DNA from: Opitutus sp.
GTDB taxonomy: Bacteria > Verrucomicrobiota > Verrucomicrobiia > Opitutales > Opitutaceae
Direction of reading: 5' to 3'
Assembly: GCA_025361365.1 (NCBI GenBank)
Contig: JANYAM010000094.1
Span: forward strand, 1-39,333
DNA length: 39,333 nucleotides
Shown piece after piece: positions 8,901 to 37,032 of the stretch. Position numbers and translations under genes: made by a program. Numbering within the stretch: position 1 is the first letter of the stretch; each line of letters starts with the position of its first letter. A model generated the notes under the pieces. The model did no database searches. It had not been told where the DNA came from and was given only the letters and a program-made list of their open reading frames with translations.

Positions 8901-10559
8901 TCAGAACTTGGATTCGTTGCCCGGTTCCGGCGGCGGCGGGCGCATCATCAGCACCAGGTAGTAGACCGCAGCGGCGAGGCCGACGCACACCAGCAGAAAC
9001 CAGTCGCCGTGCTGCGTGTAGTAGCTCTGCTTGCCCGTCCAGCGCACGTCGCGCGTCACGTCGAGGGTCTGCGCGCCGCGGAAATAGACGCTGCCGTTGT
9101 CATCCTGCAGGTTGGCGCGGATGCTGCCGTATTCGTCGATCCAGCCGCTCCAGCCGCCGTTCCCACAGCGAATGACCGGCCGGCGGGTCTCGATCGCCCG
9201 CAGCACTGAGTGGGTGGCGTGCTGGTAGGCCGCCCCGCCCTCGCCGAACCAGCCGTTGTTGGTCAGCACGGCCAGCACCTCGGCGCCCGCCAGCGCGCTC
9301 TCGCGCGCCAGGCCCGGGAAAATATCCTCAAAGCAGATCAGCACGCCGACCGGAACGTGGCGCGAACCCACCGGCAGTGACAGCGGCGTGGCGTCGGTGC
9401 CGCGCTGGAAATCGCCGCCGATGGGCGCAAACTTCTCGATCCAGCCGAACACCGGTCGCAGCGGGATGAACTCGCCGAACGGCACGAGCTTGCGCTTGGC
9501 GTAGCCGGCTGGGTCGAGACCCTTCGCCGGATCGACCACGAACGCCCCGTTATACCAAAGCTCGTCGGGCTGGCCGGACCGCTGGGTGTAAACACTGCCC
9601 AGCAGCAGCGGCTTCTTGGTGCGCTTGGCCATCGACTCCAGCCACTCCTGTACATTCGGATCGCGATACAGCGCCCAGGGCGTGACGGCCTCGGGCCAGA
9701 TGATGACCTGCGGCGCGCCGCGGCGGGCGGCGTCCAAGGTGACGTTCTCGATCGTGTGCAACACCTCGGTGGCGCGGGCGCCATCCCATTTCTCATTCTG
9801 GGGAATGTAAGGCTGCACTAGGGCGACGCGCGCCAGCGGGCGACGCTGTTGGTTGAAGGTGTCAGCGAGAAACGGAAACGAGCCACCCATCAGCACGAGC
9901 AGCGCGACGGAAAATTCCGGCGTGCGCTTCTTAAAGCCGGTCACGCCCTCAAAGAACGCCCGATGCACGTAAGCGCCTGCGCCGAGGTTGAAGACGATTA
10001 GGATGAACGACGTCGCTCCGGAGCCGGCATAGGCCGCCACCTGCAGGATGAGCGGGCGCTGCCACTGGCTGGCCGCGAGCGGCAGCCACGGGAAGCCGCC
10101 AAAGAGAACGCTGCGGAACCACTCGATCACGACCCACAGCCCGGCGAGCCCCAGCATCGCGAAGATGCGCACCAACGCCCGGTGGCCCGCCAGCCGCGGA
10201 ATGGCCCACCACACCGCGATGAACCACGCGCCCACGCACAGCCCGACGAAGGGCCCGAGCAGGAACAGCCCGACCCAGGTGACATTATGCAGCCAGCCAA
10301 GCAGCGCGGTCCACGCCACCACCTGCGCGCCGAGGACAGTCCAGGCGAACATCCGGAACGACGGCTTGCGGTAGGCCCACAGGATCGCGGGCAACGCCAG
10401 CACGTAGGCCGCCTCGCCGGTGCTGACCGGCGGGAAGGAAATGTAGGTCAGGAAAACCGTGAAGCCGAACACCGCGAGAATCCACGCCAGGTGCGGGTGG
10501 CGCTGCCACAGCGTGGGTCGCGGCTCATAGGGATCAAAGGCTGCAGTGGTTTCGGTCAT
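8901..10559 (-). CDS. lnt: Apolipoprotein N-acyltransferase
   Basis: This inner-membrane enzyme adds the third acyl chain to the N-terminal cysteine of lipoproteins. An N-terminal half with several hydrophobic segments (WILAVFGFTVFLTYISF, WTVLGAQVVAWTALLGW and others) leads to a periplasmic nitrilase domain, followed by a last membrane helix (FLLVCVGLAAAVYYLVL). The nitrilase triad is E290 (WPEAVTP), K357 (RKLVPFGEF) and C409 (LICFEDIFP). I start at 10559 (MTETTAAFDPYEP) because the 14-codon extension to 10601 runs into REP-like sequence. No Shine-Dalgarno site. The length of 552 residues is normal to slightly long for Lnt. A REP element and a REPIN separate it from the upstream HAD gene. Confidence 0.93.
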   Translation of the reverse strand: MTETTAAFDPYEPRPTLWQRHPHLAWILAVFGFTVFLTYISFPPVSTGEAAYVLALPAILWAYRKPSFRMFAWTVLGAQVVAWTALLGWLHNVTWVGLFLLGPFVGLCVGAWFIAVWWAIPRLAGHRALVRIFAMLGLAGLWVVIEWFRSVLFGGFPWLPLAASQWQRPLILQVAAYAGSGATSFILIVFNLGAGAYVHRAFFEGVTGFKKRTPEFSVALLVLMGGSFPFLADTFNQQRRPLARVALVQPYIPQNEKWDGARATEVLHTIENVTLDAARRGAPQVIIWPEAVTPWALYRDPNVQEWLESMAKRTKKPLLLGSVYTQRSGQPDELWYNGAFVVDPAKGLDPAGYAKRKLVPFGEFIPLRPVFGWIEKFAPIGGDFQRGTDATPLSLPVGSRHVPVGVLICFEDIFPGLARESALAGAEVLAVLTNNGWFGEGGAAYQHATHSVLRAIETRRPVIRCGNGGWSGWIDEYGSIRANLQDDNGSVYFRGAQTLDVTRDVRWTGKQSYYTQHGDWFLLVCVGLAAAVYYLVLMMRPPPPEPGNESKF

Positions 10560-10560
10560 T

Positions 10561-10585
10561 TGTAGGAGCCTGTTTACAGGCGACC
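10561..10585. repeat. REP-like palindrome, variant of family B
   Basis: TGTAGGAGCCTGTTTACAGG followed by CGACC. The head TGTAGGAGC and the inner palindrome CCTGTTTACAGG match the plan of the family B left arm (TGTGGGAGC plus palindrome). It lies directly upstream of the lnt start codon. Confidence 0.6.
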
Positions 10586-10619
10586 CGGGCAGCGCTTGCA
10601 AGCGTTGAGGGAAATCGAA

Positions 10620-10699
10620 AGGTGGAGCGCCTTGCCCTCAAGGCGCTTTGTTTGCCGGCGCACATCATTCAGCGCGTTGAGGGCAACGCGCCCCACCTC
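10620..10699. repeat. REPIN, family A, copy 1
   Basis: The left unit is AGGTGGAGCGCCTTGCCCTC followed by AAGGCGCTT (10620-10648). The right unit is the inverted copy, CAGCGCGTTGAGGGCAACGC followed by GCCCCACCTC (10670-10699). Each unit has its own stem (GCGC.TTG...CAA.GCGC), and the two units pair with each other. The right unit touches the stop codon of the HAD gene (TCA at 10698-10700, minus strand). Confidence 0.85.
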
Positions 10700-11390
10700 A
10701 GAGCCCCGGCAACAGCAGCGGCAGCTCGGTCAGGCGGTCTACTTTGCGGAAGCGCGGTTGGTTGGGCGGCACCTCTACCCCCAGCTCATGCTGCCACGTG
10801 ATGTGATAGGGCACATGCACGCCGGCACCGCCGAGCTCGAGCACGGGCACGATGTCGGACTTGACCGAGTTGCCGACCATCACGAACTCCTCGATCGCCA
10901 CGCCGTGCCGGCGCAACAAGCGCGAGTAGGCCGGGCCGTCCTTCTCGCTCAGGATCTCGATGGCATGAAAATGCGGCGCGAGGCCCGAGGCGGCGATCTT
11001 GCGCTCCTGGTGGTGCAGGTCGCCCTTGGTGATGAGCAGCAGCCGGTAGTCGCGCGCTAACGCCGGCACGATCTCCGCCACGCCGGGCAGCAGCTCGACG
11101 GGATGTGCGAGCATCTCCTGGCCGAGGGCGATGATCTCGCGGATTTCCCCGGCGCTGATGGCGCCCCCGGTCAGCTCGATGGCGGTTTCCACCGTGCTGA
11201 GCATGAAACCGCGCACGCCGTAGCCGTAGAGCGGCAGGTTGCGCATTTCGGTCTGGAACAGGACGCGGTCCACCTCGGCGGCCGGATGGTATTTGGCCAG
11301 CAGGGCGCGGTAGCGCTGCTGGGCGCGGTCGAAGATGCTCTCATTGTGCCAGAGCGTGTCGTCGGCATCAAAACCGATGGTATGGATCAT
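10698..11390 (-). CDS. HAD-superfamily hydrolase
   Basis: This 230-residue protein begins MIHTIGFDADDTLWHNE. D8 and D10 are the catalytic aspartates of HAD motif I (DxDxT). Motif II/III candidates are LLLITKGDLHHQERKI and the lysine in SEKDGPAYSRLLRR, and motif IV is VGNSVKSDIVPVLELG. The alpha-helical cap lies between motifs I and II, as in C1-type phosphatases such as phosphoglycolate phosphatase or YjjG-like nucleotidases. The physiological substrate cannot be read from sequence. The start codon places motif I at the N-terminus. The stop codon overlaps the end of a REPIN. A heptamer-rich inverted repeat separates it from secA. Confidence 0.85.
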   Translation of the reverse strand: MIHTIGFDADDTLWHNESIFDRAQQRYRALLAKYHPAAEVDRVLFQTEMRNLPLYGYGVRGFMLSTVETAIELTGGAISAGEIREIIALGQEMLAHPVELLPGVAEIVPALARDYRLLLITKGDLHHQERKIAASGLAPHFHAIEILSEKDGPAYSRLLRRHGVAIEEFVMVGNSVKSDIVPVLELGGAGVHVPYHITWQHELGVEVPPNQPRFRKVDRLTELPLLLPGL

Positions 11391-17338: not shown

Positions 17339-18234
17339 AACTCCATATTTTCCACCGCACCCGCTTTAAGTATGCAGCGAGTGTGCGGGAAAGCTTCAAC
17401 GAGGCCCGCCTGCAACCCGTTACCACCGACGGCCAGACCTGCCACAGCTTCCTCCTCAAGGTTCTGCCGACCTCGAAGCTGTCGCACTACCTCGATTTCT
17501 ACCTGAACTACGTGCACCTGTTCGAGATCACCCAGGCGCACACCGAGTTGACCGTCGAGGCCAACTCGACCGTGACCACGCCCGATGTGCCGGCCTTGGC
17601 CGCGGCCGCCACGCCCTCCCCGCTCGACCAGATTGGCGCGTGCGCCCGGCTCGACCGCTGCTACGATTTCCTCCAGTCCAGCACCTACGTCGAGGTCGGC
17701 GCCGACCTGTGGCGGCTCGCGCTCGACGCCACCGACGGGCAGACGGACGCCTGGCAGGCCGCGCAGGCCATCATGCGCTACATCCACCGCGAATTCCGCT
17801 ACCAGCCTGCATCGACCCACGTGCACACGCACATGCGCGATGTGCTGAAGGCGCGCGCCGGCGTCTGCCAGGATTTTGCCCACGTCATGCTCGGGCTCTG
17901 CCGCGCGCTGAAGATGCCCGCCCGCTACGTCAGCGGCTACCTCTACAACGGCCCCGCCGACCAGCTGAAAGGCGCGCAGGCCAGCCACGCCTGGGTCGAG
18001 GTCTACGTGCCCGGCCACGGCTGGTGGGGTCTCGACCCGACGAACAACCGGCAGCCCGACGGCCATTATGTGAAGGTCGCCGTGGGCCGCGACTACGCTG
18101 ACGTCTCCCCGCTCAAGGGCACCTACCGCGGCACCGCCAAGCGGCAGCTGACGGTCGAGGTGCTGGTCACGCGGCTGGAGGAACTCGAGCCGGCCCACGC
18201 CGCCGCGCCGGGCGCGGCACGTAGCGATGGCTAA
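17335..18234 (+). CDS. Transglutaminase-like family protein (cysteine peptidase or amidase fold)
   Basis: The 299-residue protein has an N-terminal beta-rich domain (MKLHIFHRTRFKYAASVRES) typical of bacterial transglutaminase-like proteins paired with ATP-grasp genes. A papain-like core follows, with triad C178 (GVCQDFAH), H218 (ASHAWVEV) and D234 (WGLDPTNN). It has no signal peptide, so it acts in the cytoplasm. In this gene context it may hydrolyse or transfer the amide bonds made by the ATP-grasp enzyme. Start and upstream stop overlap by four bases, so the two genes are translationally coupled. A family A REP begins three bases after its TAA stop. Confidence 0.92.
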   Translation: MKLHIFHRTRFKYAASVRESFNEARLQPVTTDGQTCHSFLLKVLPTSKLSHYLDFYLNYVHLFEITQAHTELTVEANSTVTTPDVPALAAAATPSPLDQIGACARLDRCYDFLQSSTYVEVGADLWRLALDATDGQTDAWQAAQAIMRYIHREFRYQPASTHVHTHMRDVLKARAGVCQDFAHVMLGLCRALKMPARYVSGYLYNGPADQLKGAQASHAWVEVYVPGHGWWGLDPTNNRQPDGHYVKVAVGRDYADVSPLKGTYRGTAKRQLTVEVLVTRLEELEPAHAAAPGAARSDG

Positions 18235-18237
18235 GCC

Positions 18238-18267
18238 AGGTGGAGCGCCTTGCCCTCAAGGCGCTTC
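18238..18267. repeat. REP unit, family A, single copy between transglutaminase and RAYT genes
   Basis: AGGTGGAGCGCCTTGCCCTC followed by AAGGCGCTTC. It sits between two convergent genes. The last codons and TGA stop of the RAYT gene (TCA 18256-18258, minus strand) are inside this repeat. Confidence 0.85.
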
Positions 18268-18708
18268 CGCATCTACCGCCCACCAGTAAGGCCAGTCGTC
18301 CTCTCTCGCGCACAATTTTTTCACGACCGGATTGCGCCGGATATAGAGCCATTTCTCCTGCGCCTCAGCCTGCGAGCGGATCCGGTGATCAAAGAAATTA
18401 TCCTGCCAGTGCACCCCCTGGATCCTCGCTGCCCCACGCTTCCAGTTTCGGATCACGACTGACATGCCAGTCTCACCTGGAAAGGCCAAGAGCGCGTGCA
18501 CATGATCCGGCATCAGCAGGAACAGCTCACACCACCAGTGACTGGAAACATGATAGTCGGTCGCTGCTTTCAAGAGAGCCGAAGCCAAAGCCGGTTCAAC
18601 CAGATTGGTCTGCTGAGTTGATGCTACCCGGATGCGAACGTGAAACTGCGCGCCATCCTTCACCCACCCTGGCGTATTGTGATGCAACCTCTGGGGATAC
18701 TCTGCCAC
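18256..18708 (-). CDS. REP-associated tyrosine transposase (RAYT, TnpA_REP family, Y1 HUH nuclease)
   Basis: This 150-residue protein has the HUH metal-binding motif H69-V-H71 in LLMPDHVHALLAF. The catalytic tyrosine is expected at Y122 in KWLYIRRNPV, and the RAYT-typical WQDNFFDHRIRS lies between them. RAYTs are single-copy, domesticated relatives of IS200/IS605 transposases that process REP/REPIN hairpins. A family A REP lies at its 3' end (containing the stop codon) and a full REPIN lies 66 bases before its start. This is the usual arrangement for a RAYT and its cognate repeats. The N-terminus (MAEYPQRLHHNTPGWVKDGA) also looks intact. It appears functional: all catalytic residues are present and there is no frameshift. 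Confidence 0.92.
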   Translation of the reverse strand: MAEYPQRLHHNTPGWVKDGAQFHVRIRVASTQQTNLVEPALASALLKAATDYHVSSHWWCELFLLMPDHVHALLAFPGETGMSVVIRNWKRGAARIQGVHWQDNFFDHRIRSQAEAQEKWLYIRRNPVVKKLCAREDDWPYWWAVDAEAP

Positions 18709-18773
18709 ATGACGAAACTATCATACCCGAGGTTCGCGTGAGGAGTAGCCTGACCACCTGAATTACGGGCAGC

Positions 18774-18847
18774 AGGTGGAGCGCGTTGCCCTCAACGCGC
18801 TTCGAGCACTCCCCAAACAAGCGCCTTGGGGGCAAGGCGCTCCACCC
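18774..18847. repeat. REPIN, family A, copy 2 (upstream of RAYT)
   Basis: The left unit is AGGTGGAGCGCGTTGCCCTC followed by AACGCGCTTCG (18774-18804). The inverted right unit is AAGCGCCTTGGGGGCAAGGC followed by GCTCCACCC (18819-18847), with a 14-base spacer. It lies between the RAYT start and the stop codon of the purine permease-like gene (17 bases from it). Confidence 0.88.
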
Positions 18848-18864
18848 AAGGCATCGGATCATTA

Positions 18865-19896
18865 TCACTCTGGCGTCTTTACCAAATATTTCGCCCAGTC
18901 CTTGACGAGGGCGTGCACGACCGGGCTGCCGACGCGGTAGGCGGCCTCGAGCGACGGGACCATCCCGGCGTATTCCGCCACCATGCTCGCGGCGGCGGTC
19001 TGGCCGGCGGGCGGCATCGAGAAATTGCTGCCGGTGCGCAGGAACAGCACGCGCGAGAAATCCACCTTCTTCAGCGCGGCAAGCCGCGTGAGGGCGTTGG
19101 CGATGCCGTGATCCTCCATGTTCGTCATCGCGCAGCTACCCTCGCCCTTCGTGTAGAGTTTCGTCCAATCATCGGCCCACTGCTGCATCCGCGCCCCGTG
19201 CCAGTAGCGGCAGGACGCGAAGCTGTCGCCGATGAAGACCTTGGGCGGCGCCAGCGCGGCGGGAAAGCCGGTGTATTGCGCGCGATGCGCCTGGGCGGCC
19301 GCGTCGTCGTAGAGCTCGACATTTTTGGTGAGATTGAAGGCCCAGGCAACCAGCGCCGGATTGAGGGTCCAGGCCATCGGCTTCGGCGCCCAATCGGGAA
19401 TGACCGGCGGCGTCAGCGGTGTCTTGTTGCCGAGCGCCATGATGCCATAGGGCCAGTCCTTCGGCGCCTCGCCGGTGTCGATCTCGTAGGCAATGTCTCC
19501 GTCGATCACATGCTTCGCCCAGGCCGCGCTGCCCTCGGTGCCGACGTGCGGGCTGACGCCGGCGATGCCATTGACGAGCCAGTAGGTCTGCGACAGGTCG
19601 AAGCGCGGGTCGAGGCATAGCGCCATGATCTGCAGGCCGCTGCGCACGGTGGTGCCGGACACGACGCCGTAGACGCCCTGGTCGTTGAAGCGGACGGGAT
19701 GGTCGAGACCGGGCACGGTGATCGTGCCGGTGAGTTTCTCGCGCTCGACCCAGTATTGGAATTCCCCGGGCTTGTCGCCCGTGTCGGCGCCGACCTCGAA
19801 GGTCGCGACGATGATCACCTTCGGGCGGATCAGCTCGGCCGCGGGCAACGCAACGGTGACCAGAGCGAGAAACAGCAGGCAGCGGGAGAACTTCAT
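18865..19896 (-). CDS. Purine nucleoside permease family protein (NUP), exported
   Basis: The 343-residue protein has a signal peptide (MKFSRCLLFLALVTVALPAA) followed by IRPKVIIVATFEVGADTGDKPGE, the N-terminal signature of the NUP family (PF06516). Other family stretches are YWLVNGIAGVSPHVGTEGSAAWAKHVIDGD, IGDSFASCRYWHG and MTNMEDHGIANAL. The family was named from fungal purine nucleoside permease, but the fold resembles nucleoside phosphorylases and the protein has no membrane spans besides the signal. A periplasmic nucleoside-binding or cleaving role is therefore plausible. Substrate uncertain. Flanked by REPINs on both sides, so probably a single-gene unit. Confidence 0.85.
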   Translation of the reverse strand: MKFSRCLLFLALVTVALPAAELIRPKVIIVATFEVGADTGDKPGEFQYWVEREKLTGTITVPGLDHPVRFNDQGVYGVVSGTTVRSGLQIMALCLDPRFDLSQTYWLVNGIAGVSPHVGTEGSAAWAKHVIDGDIAYEIDTGEAPKDWPYGIMALGNKTPLTPPVIPDWAPKPMAWTLNPALVAWAFNLTKNVELYDDAAAQAHRAQYTGFPAALAPPKVFIGDSFASCRYWHGARMQQWADDWTKLYTKGEGSCAMTNMEDHGIANALTRLAALKKVDFSRVLFLRTGSNFSMPPAGQTAAASMVAEYAGMVPSLEAAYRVGSPVVHALVKDWAKYLVKTPE

Positions 19897-19922
19897 AAGA
19901 GGTATTGAGCAACCGTTGTGCC

Positions 19923-20002
19923 AAGGTGGAGCGCGTTGCCCTCAACGCGCTGAAGAATTCACGCCAGCCAAGCCAACGCGTTGAAGGCGACGCGTTCCAC
20001 CT

Positions 20003-20003
<1 letters not shown>
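19923..20003. repeat. REPIN, family A, copy 3
   Basis: The left unit is AAGGTGGAGCGCGTTGCCCT followed by CAACGCGCTG (19923-19952). The inverted right unit is CAACGCGTTGAAGGCGACGC followed by GTTCCACCTT (19974-20003). The right unit touches the stop codon of the UDP-glucuronate decarboxylase gene (TCA 20003-20005, minus strand). Confidence 0.85.
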
Positions 20004-20929
<926 letters not shown>

Positions 20930-36976: not shown

Positions 36977-37032
36977 GAGGTGAAGGCGTTGCCCCAACGC
37001 GCTCAAGCGGCTTGAGGGCAAGCCGCTCCACC
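36977..37032. repeat. REPIN, family A, copy 4 (degenerate)
   Basis: The left unit is GAGGTGAAGGCGTTGCCCCA followed by ACGCGCTC (36977-37004). The inverted right unit is AAGCGGCTTGAGGGCAAGCC followed by GCTCCACC (37005-37032). The units abut with no spacer, and the left one has drifted (GTGAAGG instead of GTGGAGC). It ends 11 bases before the DUF885 stop codon. Confidence 0.75.

Follow-up and report, generated by a model that had tools for sequence, protein, structure and literature searches.

The 39,333-nt stretch of Opitutus sp. DNA analysed here (the window) very probably carries a REPtron, that is, a RAYT gene set between outward-tagged REPs, with REPINs as its non-autonomous elements (Table 1). 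REPs in Verrucomicrobiota, the GTGG tag and the overlap of a REP with the 3' end of a RAYT gene have all been published before, and the unit in the window is itself ordinary; the new point of this analysis is that, among RAYT relatives, the tag of the flanking REPs and the residues of strand beta1 go together.

Table 1. Features of the RAYT gene and of the family A repeats in the window
Feature	Position	Strand	Remarks
RAYT gene, 150 aa	18256–18708	−	GTG start; stop TGA at 18258–18256
HUH residue H69, codon	18504–18502	−	in the RAYT gene
HUH residue H71, codon	18498–18496	−	in the RAYT gene
Candidate catalytic tyrosine Y122, codon	18345–18343	−	in the RAYT gene
Strand beta1 of the RAYT			H23-x-R25-x-R27
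Single family A REP	18239–18265	+	GGTGG tag outward; overlaps the RAYT 3' end and supplies the stop codon
REPIN upstream of the RAYT, first arm	18775–18801	+	loop CCCT
REPIN upstream of the RAYT, second arm	18820–18846	−	loop CCCC; 1 mismatch
Family A REPIN	19925–20001	.	between NUP-like and epimerase genes; second arm with 4 mismatches
Family A REPIN	10621–10697	.	between two minus-strand ORFs (8901–10601 and 10698–11390); adjoins the stop codon of the second ORF
Family A REPIN	36979–37032	.	first arm 36979–37003 decayed (GGTGAAGGCGTTGCCCC...); second arm 37006–37032 intact

The minus-strand open reading frame was recovered as the initial annotation had described it, and H69, H71 and Y122 are invariant in an alignment of 16 sequences that includes the window protein, giving it a HUH motif and a single candidate catalytic tyrosine. 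NF047646 (REP_Tyr_transpos) was its sole NCBIfam match at 1e-3 (E = 2.9e-18; score 66 bits, cut-off 80), and no Pfam family was matched at the same threshold. The AlphaFold2 model built from the 16-sequence alignment (pLDDT 89, pTM 0.83) has the predicted fold of a TnpAREP: its top structural match is 4er8, the E. coli TnpAREP bound to REP (Z 14.6 over 140 residues), and the IS608 and ISDra2 transposases score lower (Z 10.7 and less). The E. coli TnpAREP/RayT REPtron, a group 2 system, resembles the window unit in its HUH-Y1 fold, in a tyrosine carried by the last long helix and in a substrate of REP type, tag plus hairpin, although the two proteins share 19% identity in the structural alignment. 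It differs in its GTAG tag, in stems that are bulged and in a C-terminal tail whose residues contact the tag, as described in PMC8266576, whereas the window has GTGG, mostly perfect 9-bp stems and a shorter protein.

Family A repeats consist of a GGTGG tag, a 9-bp stem (AGCGCSTTG/CAASGCGCT) and a loop that is mostly CCCT or CCCC; seven matches with ≤ 3 mismatches lie in the window, compared with none in 100 shuffles. On both flanks of the RAYT, GTGG immediately precedes a 9-bp stem with a 4-nt loop, and the gene is therefore REP-flanked under the definition given in PMC6006769 (a GTAG or GTGG tag 0–2 nt from a 7–20 bp stem with a 2–5 nt loop). Read in the coding direction the order is REP> <REP, RAYT, <REP, so that the proposed placement between a single REP and a REPIN held. 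Three further REPINs had been listed, and all are present, but in the one at 36979 the first arm is decayed; that at 10621 is also overlapped by a shorter, mechanically called plus-strand ORF (10596–11060). Predicted folding of single-stranded DNA gave −11.4 kcal/mol for one REP and a single long hairpin of −29 kcal/mol for the REPIN at 18775.

The genome-wide count first proposed as a check on the unit yielded 63 family A copies (≤ 3 mismatches) in the host genome (G000; 3.56 Mb in 297 contigs), against 0 for the reversed pattern, and 88 copies with a wider pattern. Pairing was analysed on 75 REPs, comprising the 63 and 12 weaker ones. Among 33 neighbour pairs with starts < 300 nt apart, 28 are inverted, all with tags outward and none with tags inward, and they take up 56 of the 75 REPs; family A is thus organised as genome-dispersed REPINs, two close inverted REPs each. 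The other five pairs are same-direction and come from one tandem array on contig C275, where ∼134-bp tandem units with family A-like REPs depart from the usual inverted arrangement (L126, C275:16036–19541, about 835–2612). Stem positions covary, with 95% Watson–Crick cells where 500 column shuffles reached 88% at most, related copies not being independent. REPIN spacers in the host genome cluster at ∼1–4, 10–16 and 18–27 nt, with one of 74 nt, and are more spread in the related genome G009. Flank composition showed A at position −1 in 41 of 68 REPs, and no clear CC/CT signal was seen there by inspection.

The two arms of a REPIN tend to differ in the host genome: identical stems occur in 0 of 27 pairs (4.4 expected on re-pairing, P = 0.003), or in 1 of 28 once the pair with the 74-nt spacer is included (P = 0.017). 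Among relatives the counts were 0/22 in G004 (P = 0.06) and 0/4 in G003 and, among the matches listed, 3/31 in G009, 3/11 in G018 and 0/3 in G020; the comparison used mainly paired rows and left out, for example, the pairs on G009 C155 and C176 and on G004 C494. A rule that arms always differ is not adopted and is kept as a lead only.

The initial reading of the locus as a RAYT with its REPINs is well supported by the predicted fold, the REP flanks, the dispersal of family A, the tags-outward pairs and the stem covariation. By analogy with work on TnpAREP of E. coli, Stenotrophomonas and Marinomonas, we infer how the window protein may bind, cut and mobilise. As a predicted single-domain HUH-tyrosine nuclease related to IS200/IS605 transposases, it would most likely recognise a single-stranded REP through the GGTGG tag, the 9-bp stem and the CC-containing loop, would cut next to the REP with Y122 through a 5'-phosphotyrosine, and would move or copy the two-REP unit elsewhere.

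The 3' REP reaches into the gene, as had been noted from the start: its loop supplies the TGA, the last two RAYT codons lie within it and a third is touched. The same offset between REP and stop is found in the relatives from G020, G016 and G018, and also with RAYTs of G023 and G052 that are GTAG-tagged. Across the 91 RAYT loci with supported flanking REPs, the stop lies inside a REP at 20, in three geometries only (inverted REP at offset −7, n = 8; the TAG of the tag at offset −2, n = 8; forward REP at offset −12, n = 4, one of them, L042, being the broken G009 gene in a shifted frame), which makes the overlap recurrent; in 35 more loci a REP begins ≤ 40 nt away. Di Nocera et al. 2013 (PMC3733652) had depicted such overlaps as “3'ov”, and describe GTAG REPs as often supplying TAG stops to ORFs. 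We considered whether a stop codon within the REP is selected for and do not conclude so, since the pattern may be no more than a consequence of the places at which stops occur in REPs. Given what is known in general of REPs that lie at the ends of genes, a hairpin across the stop codon may limit RAYT expression.

The RAYT is verrucomicrobial, as supposed: the best 80 of at least 472 confirmed relatives come, where named, chiefly from Opitutaceae, Opitutia and Verrucomicrobia MAGs; a few are from Lentisphaerae and Pontiellaceae, one is from Acidobacteria, and some are from bins. The family alignment matched 113 of 288 Verrucomicrobiota genomes searched at 1e-12, and 31 of 57 relative genomes contain some RAYT match; G000 alone carries 10 RAYT-like matches, several of which have hairpin types of their own.

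We compared family A copy number across 21 genomes of the genus, counting as carriers those with a RAYT of ≥ 60% identity, intact or broken; this line was chosen after the data had been seen, several genomes are drafts and the relatives are not phylogenetically independent. The five carriers hold 63 (G000), 82 (G018), 78 (G009), 54 (G020) and 8 (G016) copies (median 63), and the 16 non-carriers 50, 32, 27, 8, 7, 5, 5, 3, 2, 1, 1 and five zeros (median 2.5). Carriers exceed non-carriers (exact P = 0.0006, uncorrected for kinship), also among the 15 genomes with ≥ 90% completeness (P = 0.024, likewise uncorrected). The claim that RAYT and family A form a complete cognate unit is nevertheless only partly supported, since the family also occurs without a ≥ 60% RAYT in G003 (closed, 27 copies), G012 (closed, 32, or 62 with the wider pattern), G004 (draft, 50) and G019 (8), and G016 has such a RAYT yet few copies. 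Equal abundance in genomes lacking the RAYT, or confinement to this locus, had been named at the outset as grounds for giving up the cognate relationship, and the 27, 32, 50 and 8 copies go half of the way. The simplest reading of family A in these genomes is RAYT loss with the REPs left behind; RAYT loss is reported for E. coli strains in PMC3733652, citing others.

The same facts feed the strongest rival, a doubtful but still tenable one, in which REPs and RAYT share an ancient history, family A is now vertically inherited, perhaps with a host use at mRNA ends or in stopping transcription, and the RAYT no longer mobilises it. Family A persists where the RAYT is absent or broken: the G009 gene is interrupted just after the tyrosine codon and has N in place of D in MPDH, the G018 gene survives as two fragments on two contigs, and these two genomes hold the most copies of the 21, so that copy number is no proof of present activity. 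The 19925 REPIN sits at the same junction in both, and a second G000 RAYT of the same lineage, a paralogue on C148 (L097; 61%), keeps an open frame while lacking the catalytic tyrosine (WHS for WHY) and other residues. Against such a relic, the window RAYT retains the residues that are invariant among its relatives, and loops starting with C, as in the REPs flanking it, are the majority in G000 (61 of 88 REPs) versus 8 of 62 in the closely related closed genome G012, which lacks this RAYT. This match of majority loop to RAYT flanks is a hint, and G018 speaks against it, its flank being C-first but only 18 of 50 REPs among the matches listed (of 130) being so by eye. As a separate observation, the ∼100 bp that interrupt the G009 gene (L042, C201, about 1860–1980) seem by eye to contain a GTAG-type palindrome, the hairpin of another REP type.

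It is improbable that another G000 RAYT mobilises family A and that its nearness to the window RAYT is incidental. Ten RAYT-like matches offer candidates, and in some genomes family A coexists with distant RAYTs only; however, wherever hairpins were detected at the other G000 RAYT loci inspected, they are of different types (e.g. GGTGGGCG, GGTAGGGCGG and TGTAGCCGGG; at some loci no hairpin was detected), the exception being the tyrosine-less C148 paralogue with one GGTGG REP with a AACGCGCTG arm, and related RAYTs of G020, G016 and G018 likewise lie next to family A REPs. That the hairpins are merely bidirectional terminators or mRNA-stability elements is very improbable: they are strong, and the window's other three REPINs lie between likely genes (shorter mechanical ORFs overlap some), but near-identical sequence at dozens of loci, a constant tag, tags-outward geometry and a link to one transposase lineage are more than a terminator needs.

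Returning to the REPtron reading, REPIN and RAYT content differs at the same junctions across related species. Between the transglutaminase and NUP genes we found the RAYT and a REPIN in G000. At this site G018 has a REPIN and a remnant of the 5' part of the RAYT, G009 has just a REPIN, situated next to the NUP gene, and G003 has one family A REP together with unrelated sequence; G012 has a GTAG-family REPIN with flanks 93–94% identical, and in G016 no REP was seen by inspection. The NUP–epimerase junction has a family A REPIN in G000, G009 and G018, other REP families in G012 and G003 and, again by inspection, no REP in G016. From the contents of these two junctions in six genomes, the RAYT was probably in place at the transglutaminase–NUP junction before G000 and G018 split, and one junction can serve REPINs of more than one family; neither junction yielded an exact empty site at strain level or an insertion with an exact target site in this comparison. 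The species-specific occupation of shared intergenic junctions by different REP families can be seen at window positions 18234–18860 and 19890–20005 and in loci L135–L140.

RAYT/REPIN systems were introduced as best studied in gammaproteobacteria, which is fair, but a description of Opitutus terrae REPs from 2013 already includes some with GTGG (PMC3733652). These GTAG-17/19/20 repeats, compared here by description only, are likewise verrucomicrobial; in that account GTAG-20 is mostly GTGG, and GTAG-17 and GTAG-19 form dimers with 1–2 bp spacers. Group 3 TnpAREP of Stenotrophomonas and Marinomonas share perfect palindromic REPs with the window, loop bases being important there, but those tested have GTAG (PMC8266576). 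GTGG beside RAYTs and REPIN organisation are also described for fluorescent pseudomonads and stenotrophomonads (PMC2817692, PMC3686654).

To relate tag to protein we collected 170 distinct RAYTs, 91 with supported REPs and 79 without a supported REP and hence uninformative, using a hairpin detector that takes GTNG tags only. RAYTs with an HxR beta1 account for 37 of the 91 loci, among them the broken G009 gene; all have GTGG, and GTAG is absent from every one. At the FxT loci the tags are mainly GTAG in 50 (two with a minority GTGG hairpin) and mixed in 4. Neither an HxR locus with GTAG nor an FxT locus with mainly GTGG occurs among the 91. In a tree of 67 RAYTs the GTGG-flanked proteins group together (n = 39, SH-aLRT 99), and the tag label needs 3 changes where shuffled labels need ∼21; two GTGG rows, L234 and L261, fall outside the group, and both have mixed flanks. 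Three alternating beta1 residues of the GTGG group are H23 (39/39), R25 (38/39) and R27 (35/39), and the second group has F, T and N/C/K at the same positions (25/25 each; 25 of its 28 rows cover the strand). Other columns, such as 129, likewise separate the two groups, which is what two clades would be expected to show.

When beta1 is masked, the tree of 170 rows requires three changes in the class of beta1, of which one is L326 (H but no R), and two of tag. An AU test on 99 rows did not reject a single HxR clade (p = 0.645), and a tree constrained to it fits even better. The association may therefore count as one event, which makes it a sharp hypothesis and not proof; a strict beta1–tag code is held back as a causal claim, and a second origin of HxR with GTGG, suggested by loci L287 and L305 of G184, is not established given the same result.

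We offer, tentatively and as rather unlikely, the reading that beta1 is the protein half of a tag code, in which F-x-T-x-[N/C] would serve GTAG and H-x-R-x-R GTGG, the arginines reading the third base G; a mainly verrucomicrobial lineage would have switched both and should cut at CC (or CA) and not at CT. The regions described in PMC8266576 as contacting the tag comprise beta1, the surroundings of beta4 and the C-terminal tail, and GTGG mutants of a Marinomonas REP are reported there to be cut at CA or CC. In E. coli TnpAREP, motif alignment gives beta1 as F15-F-T17-V-N19, in a register that is not certain because the phmmer alignment has a gap of one residue at this point. According to PMC3686654, single RAYT orthogroups of pseudomonads and stenotrophomonads contain both tags, and there the tag may therefore change without a change of protein, whereas in our mainly verrucomicrobial set it follows one protein group. 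On plasmids, 26 records match the E. coli RAYT query and none the window protein; one of six examined, from P. aeruginosa, qualified on both RAYT and tag, as FxT with GTAG. Among the titles listed by a literature search with most subscription papers outside its scope, none concerned the relation of beta1 to the tag or the RAYT lineage of the window.

The recognition of REPs by RAYTs is understood only in part, and according to PMC8266576 group 3 TnpAREP lack structural data, so that their contacts are a matter of guesswork. Since it has many RAYTs of either tag state, with matching residues on one strand, the phylum lends itself to a clean swap experiment, and REP families that outlast their transposase bear on how such repeats persist.
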